From: Owenia fusiformis
Lineage: Eukaryota > Annelida > Polychaeta > Sabellida > Oweniidae
Direction: 5' to 3'
Assembly (NCBI GenBank): GCA_903813345.2
Contig: CAIIXF020000007.1
Coordinates: 10,979,730-11,043,729 of the forward strand
DNA: 64,000 nucleotides
The notes beneath the pieces were generated by a model that did no database searches, had not been told where the DNA came from, and saw only the letters and a program-made list of their open reading frames with translations. The position numbers and the translations under genes are program-made. Of this stretch, positions 1 to 62,092 are shown piece after piece (position 1 is the stretch's first letter; every line of letters starts with the position of its first letter).

Positions 1-1323
1 GTTCGTATCATATTCATGTATGGTCTTGGTGTTCCTCCTCTGATCACTTCTGTCTTCAACTTATCTTTGTCTTTATCACGCAATGTAATGCGATCATCTA
101 CATTCGCTATATTGCTCGGCAGAATGCCAGATTCTGGTACCAGGATGTAGATTTTACGAGGCATGTATGTGATGTCCTGGTTCTCACGGGTGGCCAGGTG
201 CTTTTCAATGCGACCCTTCAAATCTAGAAATTATACATATTGATTTTTGTTATCCAGTTATCTCAACGCAGAAGCTATCATTGAATAAAATAAACTCATA
301 GGCTAAATTAACAATGCTTTAGGCTAAACTGTAGCTAAAATGGTACAAAGATTGATTCATGTAGTGAGAAATTGAATCATGACTTACTAAGCATTTCACC
401 CGTAGGACCTTGTGGTGGTACTATGACATTCAAATAGGAGTAGAAGTACCCCCAGGCCATGCCAAACCCAACATCATTTCCAAGTAAGTCAATCCTCAAT
501 GGAGGAGATTTATCTACAAATATTAAACGAGGCATTAACATGCAAAATGTCATCCCATTACTTTCGCTACAGACGTTGAATGCCAACTGCTGAACACCAA
601 ATGCCGAACACTTTCCACAAAAAAGTTGGAGACTATAACAATATGTCACCACTTGTGATAGTGACATAATAAAAAATTATCTTGGATTAAAATATTTTAG
701 CTTGTTTTATAAATCTAAAACAGACATCCTCATTAAAATTTCATGATTTGCTGATGAAATGCAGCTAAACAGTTTAATCAATCTTTAAGCTATAAATCTT
801 AATCATATCATAAGAGGAAATCACCAAAAATATTATTGACATTCATCTCACATTTCTGCAAGTTAAATGATGTTAAATGTAAATGAAATGTTTTACCAGT
901 TAGAGCATATCTGAGCAATTCATCACGATTTGGATTGGCATAGTCAATATCATTTCCCCAGGTCAAGAACTTTGGTAGCTCTCTTTTATCCTTTCCCTTT
1001 CGCAACACAATCACGTATCGTTCACTCATTTCAATCATTTTAGATATTCCTCGTTGTGCATCATACATAGACTCTTTTTGCTTCAGAAAATTCTCAGTAA
1101 CAAGCAGCATTAGACGCCTTGACTCTTTCATTTTTTTTCCTGACTCCAATAACATTGGCATGCCAGGTGTGAAGTCGTCTTTGCTTAGCATCACTGAGAA
1201 TCCTGCTTCTAACAACATGGCTTTTACTTCATAAGCCTCTTTTTCATCCTTTTCTGCATAGGCCAGATAGACATGGTACAGTTGACCATTTTCAAGGGGT
1301 GGTACTGTAACAACTGCTTCATC
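1..1323 (-). CDS. TIR-STING unit B (partial, runs off left edge)
   Basis: Exons are 1323-897 (TIR), 513-388 (first STING exon) and 223-1 (second STING exon, cut by the window edge). The TIR reads YHVYLAYAEKDEK with the BB-loop DDFTPG. The STING part has MAWGYFYSYLN and RPYMNMI like unit A. The TIR exon starts after a TTGCAG acceptor in phase 0 and has no in-frame Met before its core, so an upstream coding exon is required. The nearest upstream coding exon seen is the last exon of unit A, which offers a phase-0 donor. B may therefore be the second half of a TIR-STING-TIR-STING protein; the alternative is a separate gene with an unseen short first exon between 1324 and 1998. The TIR is strongly diverged from that of A, but the visible ligand-binding exon is identical in protein. 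Confidence 0.88.
520..668. repeat. dispersed repeat, copy 1 (intron of TIR-STING B)
   Basis: The stretch ending in aacaatatgtcacca and containing gccaactg recurs with divergence at 21360-21500, 22080-22235 and around 28470-28530. It lies between the TIR exon and the first STING exon of unit B. No coding content is seen, so it is probably a short interspersed or miniature transposon. Confidence 0.5.
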
Positions 1324-1435
1324 CTGCAATATTTGTATAATTTGGCAGAGCTATAGAGCGTGGCATTGCAAGCAATATATTCAAGTGACCTACTTATTTA
1401 TTATTTTTTATTTTGTCTAAATATGATATATTCCG

Positions 1436-1890
1436 GATGATCCATGGTATGTTATGAATTGGTGAAGTTATTTAAGGATTTAAGCCCTGGACTCAGTGCA
1501 TTGTGGATTAAATCATTCCTCAAAAGGTGTTTTTCAAACTTTGCACGAGATGAATCAGCATTGAGTGTGAAGTTTAGGAAATATCACCTGAGTAGAATGA
1601 ATCAGCCACAGTGCATCAAGTCTTTGGCCTACATTCTTTTCACACTTTGCAAAACATGTACTATGAAACCTAAGAGATACGAAATCACTTAAATAATCTC
1701 AATGAAACTTTTTGGATCAATCATCATTTTCAATCTGTAGAGTCAACTTGTCACCTTGACCAGTACCATCTCAACAAATGACCTTGGGTGTTTAGTATTG
1801 TTATTGTTATATAATGGAGTGAAGCTATGTGGATTACTGTGTTCGGAATGGCTGGAATCGTAGACACCCTACCTAGCTATGTGTGAATTA
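1436..1890. repeat. dispersed repeat family A, copy 1
   Basis: This block contains taagccctggac, a run around ctttgcacgag, gtcaccttgac and tgtgttcgga, in the same order as copies at 38373-38870 and 39784-39965 in the PNKD-like gene. It fills most of the interval between the TIR-STING units. No open frame with recognisable protein was seen. Confidence 0.55.
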
Positions 1891-1998
1891 GAATTCAAAC
1901 TGCTGCAAATGTATAAATTCTCAATTGTGTCATTCTGTTTGTGAGCATCCACATTGGTGGCATTTATGTTTAACAAGTTACATTTAAAGCATATCTGT

Positions 1999-3686
1999 TT
2001 AAAAAAAACACACCATAACTGTTTGATCTTCTTCAATGTTCATCGGCTGCTCTGAGGAAGTGGAGGTCTCAATGTCACCATCTAACTGATCATTTTTTAT
2101 CCTGTCCAACAGTTCTTTATGTAGTGGAACAGGCTCATCAGTGGTCCCATCTCTAAGGTGCACCACTTCAACCATTGCTTGTTGCTCCTTAGTGAATGTG
2201 TTACTTATGATGTTCTTTAGGGTTTGATAGAAAACCTTGATTTGTACTTCACGGTCAATGGCTTGAAATTCAGTCAAGTCCTTGTTATCTTCCATTTCCT
2301 TCAGTGGTTGTAAGACAGTGGCATATTCCACAAGGCACTGATACTTCTATGAATAAAGATGTTTAATTTTTCACATTTAGCCCAAAATTCCATCATTAGG
2401 GTTTGAAACCCATGAAAAGTCTGATACAAACCAAAGAGAAAGTCAGAGCTTGGAGTCAACTGGAGGTTCTTACACATATATTGCAAAATTGACACTAAAA
2501 TAGATGTTATTTTGAAAGCAGCTTTAAATTCACTAATATTAATTTTTCAACAATTAAAATTTCTTATTTACCTTTCCACCATCTTCAATTGTTCGTATCA
2601 TATTCATGTATGGTCTTGGAGTACCTCCTCTGATCACTTCTGTCTTCAACTTATCTTTGTCCTTATCACGCAATGTAATGCGATCATCTACATTCGCTAT
2701 ATTACTGGGCAGAATGCCAGATTCTGGTACCAGGATGTAGATTTTGCGAGGCATGTATGTGATGTCCTGGTTTTCACGGGTGGCCAGGTGCTTTTCAATG
2801 CGACCCTTCAAATCTAGAAATTATGCATATTGAATTTTTGTTATCCATGCTCTCTGATGTGATAACTGAGTTTCCTCTGGAATTTATATTCTACATTGCA
2901 AATGATTGTATGTGAAAGTAAAAAGAGTTAATATTTTGTCATGATGACCTACCAAGCATTTTACCAGCAGGGCCTTGTGGTGGTACTATGATGTTCAGGT
3001 AGGAGTAGAAATAGCCCCAAGCCATCCCAAATCCAATGTCATTTCCTTGCAAAATGATATCCAATGGTTTGATGACTAAAAGTACAAAATGGATGTAGGA
3101 TTATTATTATATTGCATGGCCTTTATAGGACTCTAGAAAGTCCATCCTATATCATCTACAATCTTTATTATCATCAATTTCTATTTGTTGTAATAATCTC
3201 ATTCTATTGGAATTTCACTTTTAAAAATAAGAATAACAAAAATTATTACATTGTACCTGTTATTGCATGTTTTATTTTTTCCTGCCAAGGCACTTGTTTC
3301 CATGGGTCTTGATAGTCAATGTCAGTCACCCAACGGAGCATTGGTGGTACCTGTTTACGTGTTATCCCATCTCGCAGCACAATCAAAAAACGCCGATCTT
3401 GCTCCAACATTTTCTTTATGCCTTGATAGGACTCATACATAACACGAGGGTTTTTGATTGAATTTGGTGTTAAAATGACAACCATACGTTGCGACTCAGT
3501 TGTCCTCTTCATTAAATTCTGTAAATAGGGTTCACCTGGATGATAATCTTCCTTGAATGCCATCACCTTCATCCCTAAATCTGTTAGGCTTTTCTTAACA
3601 ACGCTTCCCAAATCCCTGTCAGCACCAGCAACTTCCAAAAACACATTATATTTGCTTTTGTCTAAAGGAATTTCTACCTTCGCCAT
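1999..3686 (-). CDS. TIR-STING fusion protein, unit A
   Basis: Four exons are read on the minus strand: 3686-3257, 3075-2953, 2813-2572 and 2346-1999. Phases join cleanly and give about 380 residues. Residues 1-143 are a TIR domain: it opens YNVFLEV and has the BB-loop motif DYHPG. Residues 144-380 are the cytosolic ligand-binding domain of STING: MAWGYFYSYLN matches the human helix holding Y163 and Y167, RPYMNMI matches human R238-x-Y240, and EYATVLQPL matches E260 and T263. The four N-terminal membrane helices of vertebrate STING are absent, as in oyster TIR-STING. STING binds cyclic dinucleotides such as cGAMP; here the TIR would be the signalling or effector module. The start ATG lies 15 bases after a possible splice acceptor (3702-3703), so a non-coding first exon is likely. 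The apparent end (VCFF then stop) may be intron read-through: a GT donor sits at a codon boundary at 2013-2012, and splicing there would join unit B. No vertebrate-type C-terminal tail is seen. Confidence 0.9.
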
Positions 3687-7950: not shown

Positions 7951-8255
7951 ATTCATAGAGTTGTCTGATTAAAAACAGGTATTCTTAACACCACATTGTC
8001 TGATCATGATCAAGTGTCAGAATTGTAAAATTCAAAATCCAACAAAATATGACAGTGCCATTGTTTGGTCATGCCTATTATATTAGAAACTTTAGAAAGT
8101 TCAGTAGTCCATTCATCTTTTCATGATCATGGAAAATGAAAATTAATTTTCTCTTTGAATTATTTCTCCATCATGGAAAATACTATGAATTTCATGATGC
8201 AAAATTGCAATTAATATTTCAACTCCTAACCTGCTTTCCTATAATGTATTTCCAG

Positions 8256-9954
8256 GCAAAGCTTGTAGCTGCAGCCACCCACAACCTTTGTGATGCTGCA
8301 AATGCAATGGTCCAGGGCCATGCAAGTGAGGAGAAGTTGATATCCTCAGCCAAGCAAGTGGCTGCCTCCACTGCACAACTGCTTGTAGCATGTAAAGTGA
8401 AGGCAGAGGGAGACTCCATGGCTATGAAGAGACTACAGGTGAGTTGTATATTTAGATTGCATGAATCATCAATTGGCACTGTTTTGAAGAAGGTGAATGT
8501 GTAACATTTAATATTACTTTTTCTCTTGGTGCCCTTGAGAGGGGGAAAGAATTCGTCAGGATTTCCCTAAAGCATATAACTTAACCTCTCTACAGATTGG
8601 AATATACATCATTGTAATCAACAGGATCCTTATTTTTTAGTGCTGTGCAAAAGGCTCTGATAACCATAAAACTTATAGGAAATGATGTCTTGTTAAAAAA
8701 TCACTACGTGATTGGGAGTCATGGGTGTCCATATGAAGTCCTTATCTAAACCCTCAGCATTCATTCTGTTTATAGGCTGCTGGTAATGCAGTAAAGAGAG
8801 CCACAGAGGCCTTGGTCCATGCTGCCCAGATGTCAAAGGACAGGGCTGATGATGAGGAACAGTTGCTGCTGAATGAAGGAATGGTACGAGGAATGAAACA
8901 GGTAGGTGCAGCTTTCGACTCTTCATTATTGTAGATTTACGTTACTAGTATCTCGATGTTAAAAATTGCCAAAAGATTATTTTTAAACTGTTTTGAATAA
9001 TTTTTTTGATCATTGTAGTTATGATGGACTGTCTCTAGTATGTTATAAATTGTCTCTATTGATTATTTTTAACTCTCTCCCTTTCTCTGAATATTTGAGA
9101 TTTTCTCTTGTTTGAAAAAATGAATTTCTGTTATTGTAAATTGTCTCTTTATTATCTTTTGATTAATTCTTCATTATTGTAAGTTATTTCTTCATTATTA
9201 TACATCTCTCTTAATTGTTGTGAATTAATCAGTAATTGTAAATTGTTGCTTGAGTATCGTAAAAAAAATTGTAAATTCTTTTTTTTGAGTGGTGACATAT
9301 TTTGGCCTCCATTTTTGCAATTGGCATATTGCTCTGGGGTCTGTAACAAATGGTTACATTTTAGTAATTGTTACCAGGTGGTTACATTTTGTGTTGTCAA
9401 TGCCTTTTTAATTGTATTCTGTTAATTGCTGTCTGAGTATTTAAAATTGCCTGCTCTATTGTAAATTGTTCTCCAATAATTTGAACCAACTCTGATTATT
9501 GTAAATTGCCTCTTAGTCATTTGAACTGCATCTTTAAATTCTATTACAACATTATGTTTGATTGCGTTTACACAATCAGAATTTAAGGATTGTGAATGTA
9601 CATGCATCATGCATACCCTCAACAGAATACTACATTAATATTATACAATTAAATGATAACAGGAATCAGTCATCAACTTAGTAAGACACAGTTATTGTAC
9701 ATAATGTGCTGTAGTAATTGTTATACTTTATATCATTATAAAAGAAGAAAATTGATGAGCCTGCCATAAGTTGTGCCAATAAAAATCCTACATTGTATAA
9801 ACTTATTTTATTCCAGGTTATAATGGCACAAGAAGAAATCCTTATTAAAGAAAAAGAACTGGAGAAAGCCAGAAGAAAACTAGAAGTTATATACAAGGCT
9901 AAATACAAGGACAGGTCTTCACCTGAATCTGATGAAGGTGGAACTTCATTTTAA
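8256..9954 (+). CDS. TLN: talin, C-terminal exons (partial gene)
   Basis: Three exons are read: 8256-8438, 8776-8901 and 9817-9954 (TAA), all joined in phase 0 and giving 148 residues. They match the very end of animal talin: VAAATHNLCDAANA, VQGHASEEKLISSAKQVAAS, VACKVKAEGDS, then AAGNAVKRATEAL and AQEEILIKEKELEKARRKL. This is the C-terminal end of the I/LWEQ (THATCH) actin-binding module plus the dimerisation helix. Talin links integrins to actin at cell adhesions. Splice sites and the stop codon look intact. The exon that should precede 8256 was not found down to 3700, and the left 3.7 kb holds an opposite-strand gene, so either this intron exceeds 8.2 kb and contains the TIR-STING locus, or this is a separated 3' fragment. 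Confidence 0.9.
9005..9520. repeat. degenerate attgtaaattgtctc repeats in talin intron
   Basis: Imperfect copies of attgtaaattgtctc occur at irregular spacing through the last talin intron. No reading frame of interest. Confidence 0.5.
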
Positions 9955-49000: not shown

Positions 49001-52000
49001 CAATTATACCTTATTAAGATGTTATATTTTGGAACGATTGATTGATAATTGAATAGTTTTCCAAGAGTTTCCCCTACTCAGCAGGGCAACCCAAAAGGGA
49101 TGTGTTTTAATAGAATGTACAATTTATGCAAAGGCATGGGTATATCATATCTTAATATGCTTGACTTGTTTTTTCTAATCATTATAATGGTACATAAATA
49201 AACTCCAAAAGAAAATATATTTTTAGCCATATATAGAGGTTATTTAATGGGAGGGATGGAATATGAATATTTTATTCCGAGGAAAAATATGATATTGGGC
49301 AAGGAAAATATCATATTAACCAAGGGTGACAGCCCAAGTGTCAATATCATATTTTCTGAGGCCAATATCATATTTTCTCGAGGAAAAATTCATATTCCAT
49401 CACGGTCATCAATAACCTATTTATTCCATCATATTTTTCTGGTGCCATAAAATGATACAATTTGATTGTCATATAACATTTTCAAAGTTTTAAAATAGAA
49501 GGAAAAATCCCAGGAAATAGTTCTGATACGGGATCTGATACGGAATTTGGGCTAATACGGGATCTGATACGGGATTTTGGCTGATATCGGATCTGATACA
49601 GGATTTTTTGAATATCAATTCTATTCCTCGTTTATTTCCCAGGGAAAACATGTTATTATGGAATAAGTAAGGTTATATGTGAATGTGATTTTTTGTAAAA
49701 ATGTAAAATTCATAGCTGTTTTTTATGTTACAGGTCTCGGGTATGCTATGGTTATAGTAAACACAGTTATATCTCTGTACTACATTGTGATTGTCGCATG
49801 GGTCTGGTACTTTTTCTTCACATCAATGCGCTCCCCACTCCCCTGGGTGGATTGTAATAATCGTTGGAACACACCAAATTGCTTTGATAGACAACAGGCC
49901 ATCAATTGTACTGCTCTGAATGCTACCTTCTTTAATGGAACTGTCTCAAACTGCTCAGAGGTTCCAGAATTGTTATCAAGTAAGTACTTTTGTATAATGA
50001 GGTGTTGTCTGAAAACCTTCAAAATAAATTTGATTTGATTTGATTTTTACTGTTATTGTTTTCGAAAAAAACATACAAGAAAAATTATTATGGTGACATA
50101 TGGGAGTCCATTGTATTTTAAATATTTTGATTCACTCACTTGTGGCGGATAAATTATCCACCTTTGAATAAAAACCATATCCTATCTACATTTCTCATCC
50201 ACATTTCAAGGAGGTTAAAGGTACAGCAAAGATTAACACTAAAGTTGAGAATAAATTTCTCAAAATTTTCATTTCATAAGGAAAGATGAACATGAAAATT
50301 TAGTGATGCGTCTTTATAAAATCAAAGTTAAATGCATCCTGGTTAGTTTCTTGACATCAATGTATCTTTCCTTTATTTCAGAAACTCAAACACCAGCTCA
50401 TGAGTACTTCTAGTAAGTGAGAATTCTTATCAATTCGTTATAATAATATTAATGGTAGAAAATAAAAATATTGCAAAATAAGCATATAATGATAATGTTA
50501 CAGTGCAAATGTACTGTATTGTGAGTGTGACATTAAAGAACAACTTTAAGTAACATATTTGTAGTTTATGAGATTATGTATGAATTTTAAAATAGCACTA
50601 CTAGACAATGTTGTACTTATGTAATGGGAATGTTACTCTAAATGTAAATACTAAAAAATTCTGCATTATTTTGTTTATTCTCTTAAAAAGATCCAGCATT
50701 TGGAAGGAATATAAATTATTTTGCTTTAAATATTATATATTATGATAACAGATGTTCAAAATCATTAACAATTGAATTGAAAATGTACATGCATTCACCA
50801 TATTCTATTGTAGTAATCATGTGCTTGAGTTGACTGATGGTTTGGGTGACTTGGGAGGGATGAGATGGCCTCTTCTGGGTACTTTGTTCCTCAGCTGGGT
50901 CATTGTTTTTCTTGTACTTATTAAGGGTGTGGCCTCACTAGGGAAGGTATGTAATTTATCTATTTCTATAACATTTATTACATGTACGAGGGTTGTTCAA
51001 AAAGTCTTGAACTTTTGCTCAAATAGCATCAAATATTATTCTTTTGGCTTCATATTTCATCAGAAATATCTTAAGTATTTATTGTCCAATCTGTTAAGAT
51101 GGCAAGAATAACACAGCTAGAATTCAAAAACTGTTTAAACTATAGCAAAAATGTCAGGATTTTAAGACAAACCTCGTATATTACTGTAAGCTTCGTTTGC
51201 ATGTTTGTTTTTTTACTCATAAAGCATTCCTTCTCATAAAAGATATTCTGGATCTTGAGCTCATGTTAACAAAGGTTGTTTAAGGATTTATGAATCATTT
51301 TCTCAAGAAGGTGTTAATTCAACCTTTGCACTGTGTGTGTTCACAATCCTGTACCAGTAGTCAATTTAGTAATCATTTAAACAATAAAGAGATGTCATAA
51401 TCATAACAAGAACTGAGACATTAGATTTAAGGATAAAAGAGGCAACGACATAATAAAATAACACTAGAGCAGAACATTTTGTGAAATGAATTTCAAAACT
51501 TAAAATCGCTGTATTTATTTTCACAAATATCTGTAATATGAATGAATGTGTATGCCCTTATATTGAAGCTCATGATTATCATTCTTCAGGTTGCATATTT
51601 CTCCTCGTTGTTCCCCTACTTCATGATGACAGCCCTGTTGATACGAGGTGCCACATTAGAGGGGGCCAGGAAAGGAATAGAGTTCTATATGATACCAAAG
51701 TGGGAGAGACTAGCTGATATACAGGTTTGTAGACCTTTTGTTCTTTGTAGACATTGAACACCCAATATACAATCAGACAATAGAACCTGTGTAAGTGGAA
51801 CATCTTTGATCATTTTAAGAGGTGTTCCACTTGGGAGGTATTCCATTCTTAGAGGCTCATTTAACATGGAGCCAGTTGGACATTGGTCATCTAAAATTGT
51901 TCTATTCATGGAGGCATTCCACTTACAGAGGTGTTCCACTTTACAGGTTTCACTTTTTAGTACTTTCACTATTTAATTCTGACCGTACTTCGATCTATTG

Positions 52001-55000
52001 CAGGTATGGAGTGATGCTGCTAATCAAATCTTCTACTCTCTCGGCATTAGCATTGGTACCCTGACTGCAATGTCCAGCTTTAACAGATTCAACCACTACT
52101 GTCTACGAGATGCCCTCATTGTACCATTCATTAACTGTGCCACCAGTATATATGCTGGTTTTGCTGTATTCTCAGTGCTTGGCTTTATGGCTACCAGGGC
52201 CAACCTGCCTGTGGAACAGGTTGCTGTGTCAGGTATTTACTTACAAAATGAATCTACATTTCTGATGCCAATAAGATATTTCATGGCCTTTTTGGGGACT
52301 AAATGTAAAATAAATGTGCTATTCAGTAAATGTAGCAATTGTGATTTTCTAACTTCATATTCTGATGGTGCATTAAAAAGTCTGTGTAAAGGGTTATCTC
52401 AACATGTATTCTAGTTTAGTAGAATAATTGATATATTTTATGCAAAAATTGTCTGAAACAGGAAAATATGGATATGTAAACCAATGTAGTCGTACATTCC
52501 CTTGCATTCCTATTATATTTTACGTACATCTACTATGAATGTTGTACTTACTGTTCCATCTTGTCAAGGTGATCTCCATAGCAACCATATTTTTTGTAGG
52601 TCCAGGGCTTGTGTTTGTAGTGTACCCCGAAGGACTAACTCAGATGCCAGGATCCCCTACCGCCTGGGCCATCCTTTTCTTTATCATGATGATGTTTCTT
52701 GGATTCAGCTCACAGGTCAGTAATATTTGCTTTGATTGTTACATCTGGTATATTTTCATGTCTGCCATACTTTGTGTTAACACATCATATAATTATTTGA
52801 CCAAAGTAAATAAATCATCTAATTGAATGTTGCCCTTTGTTCCAGTTTTCCCAAGTTGAGACGATTATTTCAGCATTTAATGATGAATCCGGGGGCTGGT
52901 TCCTCAGAGGAAGATGGAGGGGTTTAGCATTCAGGGCAACTGTGTGTCTCATTATGTTTGCTTGTGGAATACCTCTAGTCTTTCAGGTAAGTTGAGGTAG
53001 AACCCAAACACCAGTCCAGCCTTAAGTTGTATCTCCCACAACATCTACCACCTCTTCAATTTAACATTTGTACACCTTAAGGTAGTTGTATCCTGGAAAT
53101 AGATGGCGCTATGCTAAAGTAATAGTATGTGAGAAATGATTTGACAGGTGTTCAGGTTTAAGAGGTATTTCGTGATATCACACTTTTGAGAAATGAGTTT
53201 TTTTATTTATATCGATGCATAATTTTTATGGATTCAATGAATTATATCCAATAATGGCCTTTCTAATGTTTGTTTTACTCTTTGGTATACATTTAGCAAA
53301 ATGTTAGACAAAAGCATCCAAAAATTGAAAATATTATTTTGAAGCGTAATGATAAAAAATGAAACTATGTTTAACTATGAAGCATAATTATATCCTGGTC
53401 ACAGCTACCTTAAGATGAAATTTTGAACTAAGTTGAAAATCTAGTCTAGTATTAGATTAGGCTAATGTCTGAATGATAGCACTTCAATTTAACATTTGTA
53501 CACCTTAAGGTAGTTGTATCCTGGAAATAGATGGCGCTATGCTAAAGTAATAGTATGTGAGAAATGATTTGACAGGTGTTCAGGTTTAAGAGGTATTTCG
53601 TGATATCACACTTTTGAGAAATGAGTTTTTTTATTTATATCGATGCATAATTTTTATGGATTCAATGAATTATATCCAATAATGGCCTTTCTAATGTTTG
53701 TTTTGCTCTTTGGTATACATTTAGCAAAATGTTAGACAAAAGCATCCAAAAATTGAAAATATTATTTTGAAGCGTAATGATAAAAAATGAAACTATGTTT
53801 AACTATGAAGCATAATTATATCCTGGTCACAGCTACCTTAAGATGAAATTTTGAACTAAGTTGAAAATCTAGTCTAGTATTAGATTAGGCTAATGTCTGA
53901 ATGATAGCACTGATCAATCAAATCAAAATATGAAACTGATATACATTCTCATCTATTCTGTTTCCAGGGTGGCTTCTATGTGTTTACAATATTTGACACT
54001 TATGCTGGAGGATTCCCTCTCCTTATAATAGGTCTACTAGAAGTCATTGTTATCACATATATATATGGTAAGTTTATGCATGGGCTTTCTCTTGAAAACC
54101 CATGGTTTATGTTTTGACTATAATGATCAATGCTATTACATTATATGCCCTTGTCGTTGGCGGATCTAGCGGGGGCAGGGGTTGGGCCCAGAATCTTTTT
54201 ATAGGGCCTCAATTAGTGGGCATTACTAGGGCTTTTTGGGCCTTTTTAGGCCAAATTATCAAAAATGGGCCGTACATTTTCAAAATTTTGAAAATTTGGA
54301 TTTAGGGGCCCAAATTTTTTTTTTCGAATTTCAAATGTTGGCACCCCCCCCCCCCCCCCTGTTAGCTTCTTGATCCACCAGTGCTTGTATTGTGATATTA
54401 CCCTGTGTTAGTTGTATCAGTGTATCAAAGTTGTTTCAGTGTATCAAAAATTACTTCTAGAACCAATCAGATTGTGAGGTATCAATAAGATGTATGTTTT
54501 CTTGTAGGATTCAATAGATTTGCTGAAGATATTCAGATGATGATTGGGTATAAACCAAGTTTGTTTATAAGAGCTTTTTGGAATGTCATTACACCACTAC
54601 TTTTGTTGGTAAGTTGTTGTTTTCATCATATCAAGCACAGGAAGTGATCAGAAATGTCTTCCATTAATCTGATAAACTCAGACCATCAATGAGTTGTATA
54701 ATTTTTTTAACTTGATCACTGCTCTATATTGTTCCATCATTTATATGTATTTATATGCCATACCTTTGAACATTAATTTTATCCCTGCTATCTAAAAATA
54801 TCCCATAAATACATGCAGCACAAACCCAGTGAGCAATTGACTGCCTTTAAATGATACTATGTTTTTATTCCTTTCAGGTGATCATTATACTGAAGATTGT
54901 GCAATACAAGCCATTAACATTTGGGGATTACACATACCCCCCTTGGTATGGAGGTAAGTGAACATTAAAATGAATATTGAAAATCTTTTGTTACTGTATC

Positions 55001-59985: not shown

Positions 59986-60136
59986 ACTGTCCAAAATTAT
60001 ACTGAACATGGTCTTTTTTGGACTAAAAATAGTTATGTTGTTGATAATGTAGCTGTTGTACAAGTACTATTCAAATTTTTGTGGCTTTTAATTGTATTTT
60101 TTTGTAATTTCAGTTGGTCGCTTAGATCTCCTAGTG

Positions 60137-62092
60137 ATGTCGTCATCTGATTCTGACAACCATGACTCAGATAATGGCTCTGATAGGGATTCAGTCAGTC
60201 ATTATTCCAGCATCAGAAGTTCTCCGTCCTCCAATCATTCACGAGGCAGTTCACCCCCTTTGTCACCTAGATATTCTGATTATTCCGATACAGAGGAGCA
60301 TAATGGACCATCCAACGAGATTCATGACCCGGCCTTTAATGAATCAAAATCTAGGCTTAACATCAGTGAAATGCAAAAGAATGGACGTTATTGCGATATC
60401 ACTATTCTTGTTGGCGGCAAAAGTTTTCCTTGCCATAAAGTCATACTTGCATCATGGTCAACCTATTTTGACTCCATGTTCTCAAGTGGGATGACTGAGA
60501 GCAACAGCAAAGAAATCACCCTTAAGGACATATCAGTAGAAGCATTTCAGGCCATAGTGGACTATATGTATAGAGGCGTCATTAAACTGGATTCCGTTGA
60601 AATTGCGTTGAACGCGCTTAAAACAGTGGACATGCTTCAGTTCGACAAAGAATTCCACAAACGTTTGGTGGTATATCTCTGCTCTGAGTGTCATCCGGCT
60701 AACTGCTTGACTATGTTAGGACTTGCCGATCTGATTGGCGAGGAACAACTAAAGCGACATGCTAAATCCTGGGTCTTGAGTGACTTTAAATATATAATCC
60801 AAACTGAAAGCTTTCTGCAAATGGATGCAAAACTTCTAATTGAATGTATCAGCGATGTGAATCTTGTGGCAAAAGAGGAAGAAGAAGTTTTTTTCGCAGT
60901 GGTGAAATGGCTAGATGTAAATTACTCAACAAGAAAACAGTTCGCTGCGGAACTGTTATCCAATATCCAATTCTGCTTTATGGAGTCGCATGTATTGTTT
61001 GATTCTCTTGAGAAAAATGAGCTTCTCAAAGACTTGCCCGAATTCCAAAGATATCTAAATGAAGCTAAACGCCATCAGGTTATTCCATGTTATCGTCACG
61101 ATGATCATGGTAGACGCTGTAGGGCAAGAACCTGCAACACTAAAGTTCTGTTGATGTTTCCAGAAGATGAAGGTGGTCCTATCGAGAACCCTTTTCATGT
61201 CCCAAAATCTCACGAAGAAACATATGAACCAATACCATTGCCTCATAAAATTGGTGATGCAGTTGAAGGAAATGGAATTGGCGCTGTTAAAGTTTGTCTT
61301 GTTGGACACACAATATTTGCATGTGTATCCGAATCCATGTGGAAATGTCAATATAAACATAACCCCCGTTATTCCAAAGACCCCGAGCAGCCATACTGGT
61401 GGGGTAGCTGGCAGCCATGTTCTCCCAAGTCAGATTTCAGGCATTTCTTCAGTCTGACTCTGGCTGGATCTTATATCTATGCAGTGGGGGGCAAAGACAT
61501 AAACGGTAGAGGTTCTCGCTTGATTGAGAGATATGATTGGGAAGAAGACCAGTGGAGAAATCCAAAAGATGGGCTCATTACTGGTGTTTTCGGTCATGCT
61601 GCAGTTGTAGTTAAAAACAAGCTGTATATTTTGGGTGGCATAACAAATCTTGATCGTGCAACTGATGCCGTTCAAGTGATCCATCTTGACCAGAAAAAGA
61701 TGAAAATCGTAAGTGGCCCTAAAATGCTTGAACCCCAAGAGGGCCATTCTGCTGTTGAGTTCAATGGTCGTATCTACAGTGCAGGCAAGCAGTTTTTGAT
61801 GTTCGACCCTGAAACAGCTGTTTGGACAAGACTCTCGTGGCCCAGTGGACGCATTGCACATACTCTCCAAGGGATGACAGTCTATGGTTCAAGTATCATG
61901 ATGTTTGGAGGAGCTCTAGAAAATCTCAGTGATATTGATAGTTACGATGGCCACAGCAGTATGGACCTGCTACGAAAGATTGTCTCTTACAATGTAGAAG
62001 AGGACTCATTTGATCATGGAGACTTACCTAATCCAATGGCGTTTGGAGGGGCACTTTGTGTGGTAAATAATAAACCCCTGAAGTGGTTATAG
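60137..62092 (+). CDS. BTB-BACK-Kelch protein (KLHL-like)
   Basis: A single uninterrupted frame of 651 residues. I chose the ATG at 60137 (MSSSDSDNHDSD) because the 15 codons before it cross a splice acceptor (tttcag at 60108-60113). Residues 1-65 are a Ser/Asp-rich, probably disordered, extension. BTB spans about 85-190 (CDITILVGGKSFPCHKVILA). BACK follows at about 195-295 (CLTMLGLADLIGEEQLKRHA). Kelch-type beta-propeller repeats run from about 360 to the end, with YAVGG, LYILGG and IMMFGG. Proteins of this kind usually serve as substrate adaptors for Cullin-3 ubiquitin ligases. I cannot assign a specific KLHL orthologue. The coding region lacks introns, unlike its neighbours, so it might be an old retrocopy that gained a 5' exon, or an ordinary single-coding-exon gene. 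Confidence 0.93.
   Translation: MSSSDSDNHDSDNGSDRDSVSHYSSIRSSPSSNHSRGSSPPLSPRYSDYSDTEEHNGPSNEIHDPAFNESKSRLNISEMQKNGRYCDITILVGGKSFPCHKVILASWSTYFDSMFSSGMTESNSKEITLKDISVEAFQAIVDYMYRGVIKLDSVEIALNALKTVDMLQFDKEFHKRLVVYLCSECHPANCLTMLGLADLIGEEQLKRHAKSWVLSDFKYIIQTESFLQMDAKLLIECISDVNLVAKEEEEVFFAVVKWLDVNYSTRKQFAAELLSNIQFCFMESHVLFDSLEKNELLKDLPEFQRYLNEAKRHQVIPCYRHDDHGRRCRARTCNTKVLLMFPEDEGGPIENPFHVPKSHEETYEPIPLPHKIGDAVEGNGIGAVKVCLVGHTIFACVSESMWKCQYKHNPRYSKDPEQPYWWGSWQPCSPKSDFRHFFSLTLAGSYIYAVGGKDINGRGSRLIERYDWEEDQWRNPKDGLITGVFGHAAVVVKNKLYILGGITNLDRATDAVQVIHLDQKKMKIVSGPKMLEPQEGHSAVEFNGRIYSAGKQFLMFDPETAVWTRLSWPSGRIAHTLQGMTVYGSSIMMFGGALENLSDIDSYDGHSSMDLLRKIVSYNVEEDSFDHGDLPNPMAFGGALCVVNNKPLKWL

Follow-up and report, generated by a model that had tools for sequence, protein, structure and literature searches.

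TIR-STING proteins are known from oyster and bacteria. In the oyster (Crassostrea gigas) protein (6WT6/6WT7), one TIR domain is followed by one STING ligand-binding domain in the same chain, and this protein is described as a dimer with a linker that crosses the dimer interface (PMC9402430). The TIR-STING proteins of the bacterial cyclic-oligonucleotide-based antiphage signaling system (CBASS), SfSTING and ElSTING, have the same domain order with a single unit per chain and assemble into filaments in response to ligand, as described in PMC9402430 and PMC12421889. The annelid Capitella teleta is a further reported source of a TIR-STING (PMC6723221). Animal TIR-STING is reported to be an independent fusion, and the same source calls eukaryotic TIR-STINGs rare and the role of the TIR in the animal protein unclear (PMC10732462). 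In mollusc Toll-2, a doubled TIR occurs in one immune receptor chain, and the tandem-TIR form is reported to be the stronger inducer of antimicrobial peptides in S2 cells (PMC4929906). Here we describe a locus of the annelid Owenia fusiformis at the left edge of a 64,000-nucleotide stretch of DNA (the window; C7:10979730-11043729, where C7 is contig CAIIXF020000007.1 of assembly GCA_903813345.2). An earlier note on this DNA had proposed that two TIR-STING units at this edge, A and B, may form one protein. Our gene model has two TIR and two STING domains in one chain, compared with one of each in the oyster and bacterial proteins, and the whole TIR-STING is doubled rather than the TIR only, as it is in Toll-2. 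The earlier note had named oyster and bacteria as sources of TIR-STING, which agrees with the literature; the Capitella report adds an annelid. No doubled TIR-STING chain was found among the papers listed in the PMC literature searched, although an unremarked database entry may exist, and we regard the doubled chain as new as a variant of known TIR-STING.

Window coordinates are used below; addition of 10979729 gives the C7 coordinate. Units A and B are on the minus strand throughout, with A extending from 3686 to 2014 and B from 1323 off the left window edge. The analysis was extended by 30 kb to the left of the window, and the rest of unit B was located there. Pfam matches and exon models show that A and B each consist of a TIR and a STING domain. 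The GT donor at the end of A (2013-2012, ATG/GTGTGT, phase 0) sits exactly on a codon boundary, and reading through it adds VCFF and then a stop, which is the four-residue tail that the earlier note had described. That note had also described the TIR exon of B as a phase-0 exon without a start codon before the TIR core, and this was borne out. The exon begins at 1323 in phase 0, and the upstream frame (LCQIIQILQ) closes after nine codons, none of which is an ATG. In frame, an ATG first appears at codon 36, within the TIR core and behind at least four out-of-frame ATGs. When A is spliced to B across the inferred 690 nt intron (1324-2013, the gap between the units), the frame is open for 729 residues in the order TIR-STING-TIR-STING. 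This is in line with the intron of about 0.7 kb, the acidic linker and the tandem four-domain chain that had been suggested, and these features of the proposal are supported as a gene model. In the models of units A to G, the introns within units have phases 1-1-0, and both unit-to-unit joins are in phase 0. As a gene model, the A-B observation is confirmed. We hold it very probable that A and B form one gene encoding one chain, TIR1-STING1-linker-TIR2-STING2, of 729 residues.

The strongest evidence for a doubled chain is a diverged paralogous pair of units, F and G, on a second contig. This pair is arranged head to tail on the plus strand at C5:30322000-30331500 and was reached via a STING search. 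The last exon of F ends at C5:30327073, at a strong phase-0 donor (CAG/GTAAGC). The TIR exon of G begins after a further 233 nt, at C5:30327307; it is also in phase 0 and is immediately preceded by a stop codon. The spliced F-G chain is open and, like that of A-B, has 729 residues. The tail of the last exon of F has 33 residues, 12 of them acidic and 3 basic, and the corresponding tail in A has 26 residues with 8 acidic and none basic. The distance from the IKxD motif to the TIR core is 39 residues in A-B and 41 in F-G, and the two linkers are acidic but differ in sequence.

As a comparison, we examined four single units, namely C and D to the left of B, E at C7:12.83 Mb and H on contig C346. 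In all four, the TIR exon has an ATG ahead of the core, and a stop follows STING. By contrast, both A and F are without this post-STING stop. The arrangement thus appears to be more than chance, since F-G on C5 has it too and the four single units do not. The gaps between the paired units (690 nt in A-B and 233 nt in F-G) are also short compared with those from B to C (10077 nt) and from C to D (4480 nt); introns within units A to G span 139-1273 nt. Unit H is a distant single TIR-STING with TIR matches in two separate stretches, compared with a one-exon TIR in units A to G, and probably has its TIR divided between two exons. A STING_LBD search of the whole genome (498 Mb) listed 14 exon-level matches. 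No TIR exon was found within the 7.5-8 kb pieces around STING-like loci on C9, C10 (two loci) and C12, with matches above E 0.5 dropped, and no STING exon was found within 9 kb of a TIR-like exon at C9:22513999 (piece L012:6000-6389) at E up to 0.001.

Unit A has four modeled exons. Exon 1 (3257-3686) carries the start codon and TIR domain 1 (TIR_2, 46.1 bits; exon model) and ends in a phase-1 donor. The ATG is at 3686; 6 nt upstream of it is an in-frame stop, and 15 nt upstream an acceptor-like AG. Exon 2 (2953-3075; exon model and alignment with human STING) holds the start of STING with the equivalents of Tyr163 and Tyr167 (GYFYSY), and exon 3 (2572-2813; Pfam fragment, alignment and model) its middle with those of Arg238 and Tyr240 (PRPY). 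Exon 4 (2014-2346; STING_LBD, 44.7 bits) contains the end of STING (VEYAT) and the acidic tail, and ends on a codon boundary. In unit B, exon 1 (897-1323) is TIR domain 2 (TIR_2, 40.8 bits), with no start codon before the core and the sequence MYDAQ. It is followed by exon 2 (388-513; GYFYSY) at the start of STING and by exon 3 in the middle of STING, which occupies 1-223 in the window and runs past its edge to -18, both from the exon model. Exon 4 with the stop lies outside the window (C7:10979403-10979137, window -326 to -592; STING, 45.8 bits). Both TIR_2 scores are above the Pfam cut-off of 28 bits. Exon 3 of A (23.1 bits) and the windowed part of exon 3 of B (20.1 bits) are below the STING_LBD cut-off of 27 bits, each being a fragment of the domain.

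Splice sites in these models were picked by open frame, score and homology, and four junctions are not top of a crude ranking. These are A-B, TIR-S1 in unit B, and S1-S2 in units D and F. The site chosen for B TIR-S1 ranked fifth, and the four above it include two in phase 1, like the chosen site, and two in phase 0; for D and F the higher-ranked alternatives share phase 1 with the chosen site. At A-B, an acceptor at 1350 ranks above 1323, and both are in phase 0. To score sites we used a matrix built from the 21 within-unit introns, with leave-one-out scores for these introns and a background of 1150 GT and 1037 AG sites. A longer TIR2 exon from 1350 would be open and had the top crude pyrimidine rank, but its matrix score is at the background level, being matched by 43% of AG sites versus 10% for 1323, and it adds no start codon. 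It is not the exon we prefer.

Several observations weigh against a single A-B chain. The A donor is moderate, with a score that is reached at 4.2% of background GT sites. The acceptors are weak. Those of B and G are reached at 10% and 16% of background AG sites, respectively, and both score under all 21 within-unit acceptors. With a moderate A donor and weak acceptors, the splice sites alone do not prove the junction. In addition, the A-B gap contains AATAAA at 1412 and 1402, which makes a short A-only transcript possible. It could be that the locus gives both products, an A-only TIR-STING ending in VCFF through read-through and intronic polyadenylation together with the spliced double protein. 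The stop only four codons beyond the moderate A donor fits this, but the 233 nt gap of F-G has neither AATAAA nor ATTAAA, and the F donor, reached at only 0.2% of background GT sites, outscores all 21 within-unit donors. We consider the presence of both products rather unlikely, although this explanation is compatible with A and B being one gene and the odds of the two overlap.

A different view is that A and B are two separate genes, in which B would have a hidden start exon or a non-ATG start and G would start from the ATG that it has directly at the TIR core. This ATG is in frame, at residue 9, and of the two second units it leaves only B strictly startless; two out-of-frame ATGs precede it in the exon of G. 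An acceptor-like AG is found 8-45 nt before the start codon in six ATG-bearing TIR exons (A, C, D, E, F and H), hence a 5' leader intron is probable, and small ATG...GT candidate exons occur in both gaps. There are 8 of these in the F-G gap versus a shuffle mean of 3.8, which also counts against a single chain. By contrast, the A-B gap has 9 versus a shuffle mean of 11.5. The best candidate donor is ordinary in F-G, where it is reached in 102 of 300 shuffles, and that in A-B is reached in 91 of 300, so we did not take a start exon inside either gap as support for separate genes. Only 233 nt lie between F and G, and A and F are without the stop that follows STING in the single units. Together, these data make separate genes improbable. 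It is more improbable still that B is a startless relic or that the pair is an assembly error. Exon 3 is near-identical between A and B over about 280 bp, which speaks for this view, but with gaps set aside the TIR exons are 61% and the last exons 68% identical in DNA, which indicates that A-B is not a false duplicate. All four exons of B are open, its STING half is constrained, and an equivalent pair exists on another contig. The remaining explanation, an operon resolved by spliced-leader trans-splicing in which the leader gives B its start codon, would account for a TIR exon that begins at a 3' splice-like site without a start codon. We regard it as the least credible. Single units of the same genome have their own ATG, the upstream units have no stop before the donor, and the phase-0 join and the acidic linker of conserved length would be coincidence. 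What the DNA does contain is a set of intact exons with compatible phases, a second unit that is startless and a paralogous double gene, and one gene encoding one chain from A and B is the reading we prefer.

Despite the missing start codon in B, its STING half is constrained. Compared with G, the nonsynonymous divergence (dN) is 0.23 and the synonymous divergence (dS) 1.09. For the TIR, dS came out undefined in seven of eight pairs, with 3.0 in the remaining one, and our case for constraint is limited to the STING half. We built maximum-likelihood trees of the seven modeled units A to G, with H left out and 95/80 as the mark for a firm branch. The whole-unit tree pairs A with F (94/96) and B with G (91/94), so that each half joins its counterpart rather than its neighbor; in 4 of 200 shuffles the three labels cluster equally well. 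The tree suggests that the head-to-tail arrangement probably predates the duplication between C7 and C5. The arrangement would then have persisted as the TIR domains diverged to an identity of 45% for A-F and 50% for B-G; TIR identity is 35% for A-B and 33% for F-G. Some of the tree results speak against this. The TIR tree agrees at lower support (78/93 and 88/96), the STING tree has a weak A+F group (54/82) and does not recover B+G, and no inner branch in the three trees reaches the firm-support mark.

The weaker grouping in the separate trees is perhaps due to conversion between A and B. Exon 3 has 8 differences between A and B over 242 nt, all synonymous (97% DNA identity), and in the adjoining intron stretches similarity drops from 38-39 of 40 to 16-22 of 40. 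DNA comparison places the near-identical tract of about 280 bp at 2847-2568 and at about 256 to -18, both on the minus strand. This exon-sized tract looks like recent gene conversion. As for its origin, a tandem duplication probably gave rise to the double gene, after which the upstream unit would have lost its stop. The stopless unit may then have been spliced into a leader acceptor that TIR exons carry just before the start codon. The acceptor-like AG at this position scores 5.8-13.2 in five of the six ATG-bearing TIR exons (A, C, E, F and H) and 4.1 in D, which suggests fusion via such an acceptor.

We also compared the predicted protein with known systems. The single unit C has 6wt6 as its best PDB match (residues 5-347 of 351, E 1.1e-21). 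STING Pfam matches on the single exons scanned were to PF15009 only, with none to PF20300 (Prok_STING). The CAP12/Pycsar TIR model gave 17.5 bits for TIR1, below its cut-off of 24.7, and no match to TIR2 at E up to 1. Human STING is membrane-bound and has no TIR, whereas here a TIR is present and hydropathy gives no transmembrane-like stretch (the best mean over 19 residues is 1.0-1.1). When the ligand-binding domain of A was aligned with human STING chains, the equivalents of Tyr163, Tyr167, Arg238, Tyr240, Glu260 and Thr263 were kept (human residue numbers). The position of Arg232 is a point against this likeness, as it aligns to Ile in A with an Arg adjoining. The same ligand motifs are present in B, F and G in the all-unit alignment. 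Most of the STING cyclic-dinucleotide pocket residues compared are thus kept.

The YE motif of helix C has Glu in seven of the eight aligned TIR domains, H not being in the alignment, and Asp in the TIR of B (TIR2, 1323-897). We take this Glu column to be the catalytic position of TIR NADases. TIR domains of TLRs also keep the helix C Glu, so its presence does not show activity. A structure predicted for TIR2 from an 8-row alignment has a TIR fold with a mean predicted local distance difference test score of 87.9. The best Z score of this model is 18.0, to the oyster TIR-STING 6wt6, and 6wt7, MyD88 (7beq), Hydra TRR-2 and the SPARTA TIR (8ifl) are within 1 Z, ties with which the model cannot separate adaptor TIRs from NADase TIRs. 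Foldseek with the same model placed MyD88 first and 6wt7 sixth. The 12 matches listed from a sequence search with TIR2 are chains of MyD88, TLR2 and SIGIRR and do not include the oyster protein.

Other exons in the window belong to a talin-like I/LWEQ protein (8127-8504), a sodium:neurotransmitter symporter (49667-50038 and 51983-52414) and a BTB-BACK-Kelch protein encoded by a single long open frame (60092-62092), all on the plus strand. By eye, we also saw a 30-base sequence with CCCCAC...GTGGGG arms upstream of A. It occurs twice in tandem (5442-5413 and 5401-5372), 41 bp apart, and is possibly part of a small mobile element.

Published accounts describe two STING domains as forming one cyclic-dinucleotide pocket and ligand-driven filaments as gathering the TIR domains (PMC12421889, PMC9402430). 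In SfSTING a residue from the dimer mate is described as completing the TIR active site (PMC9402430), and the STING of Capitella teleta is reported to bind 3'3' dinucleotides and 2'3'-cyclic GMP-AMP (PMC8204762). Since two STING domains make one pocket and both are predicted to be on one polypeptide here, we infer a receptor that is already paired. In such a mechanism, the messenger RNA would encode a soluble receptor of 729 residues in which both STING ligand-binding domains are on one chain, joined by the acidic linker of about 40 residues. The molecule would be made as an already paired pseudo-dimer, and its two TIR domains would differ from each other. Once a cGAS-like enzyme supplied a cyclic dinucleotide, the pocket would close and the receptors would assemble into a filament, by analogy with the bacterial proteins, which would bring the TIR domains together. 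These would then recruit TIR adaptors or, if they are enzymatic, cleave nicotinamide adenine dinucleotide (NAD+). Many Mab-21 proteins are not cGAS-like enzymes, but at least 12 Mab-21_C matches occur in this genome, so possible makers of cyclic dinucleotides exist. The near-identical exon 3 of A and B, which carries the Arg238 and Tyr240 equivalents, fits a shared pocket, and the two TIR domains of each pair look specialized, to judge from their low identity. We put forward this pre-paired single-chain receptor with filament formation and a TIR output as a tentative proposal that leans on the systems above.

To our knowledge, STING is dimeric in every known case. The halves of such a dimer come from one gene and are identical. 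More speculatively, the A-B and F-G chains may be obligate single-chain STING heterodimers, in which two different halves form one pocket and the two TIR domains have different roles, as the Glu/Asp difference between A and B hints. The architecture would then date back far enough for it to have undergone duplication and been retained on two chromosomes. If this is true, animal STING sensing could occur without prior assembly of a dimer and could be adapted to cyclic dinucleotides that are asymmetric. In a natural double receptor of one chain, the halves would be free to evolve separately. Such a receptor would also be a defined, covalent construct with which to examine pocket closure by ligand, the coupling of the pocket to the TIR domains and the function of the TIR in animal TIR-STING. 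The double gene would, in addition, illustrate a route from tandem receptor genes to one protein.

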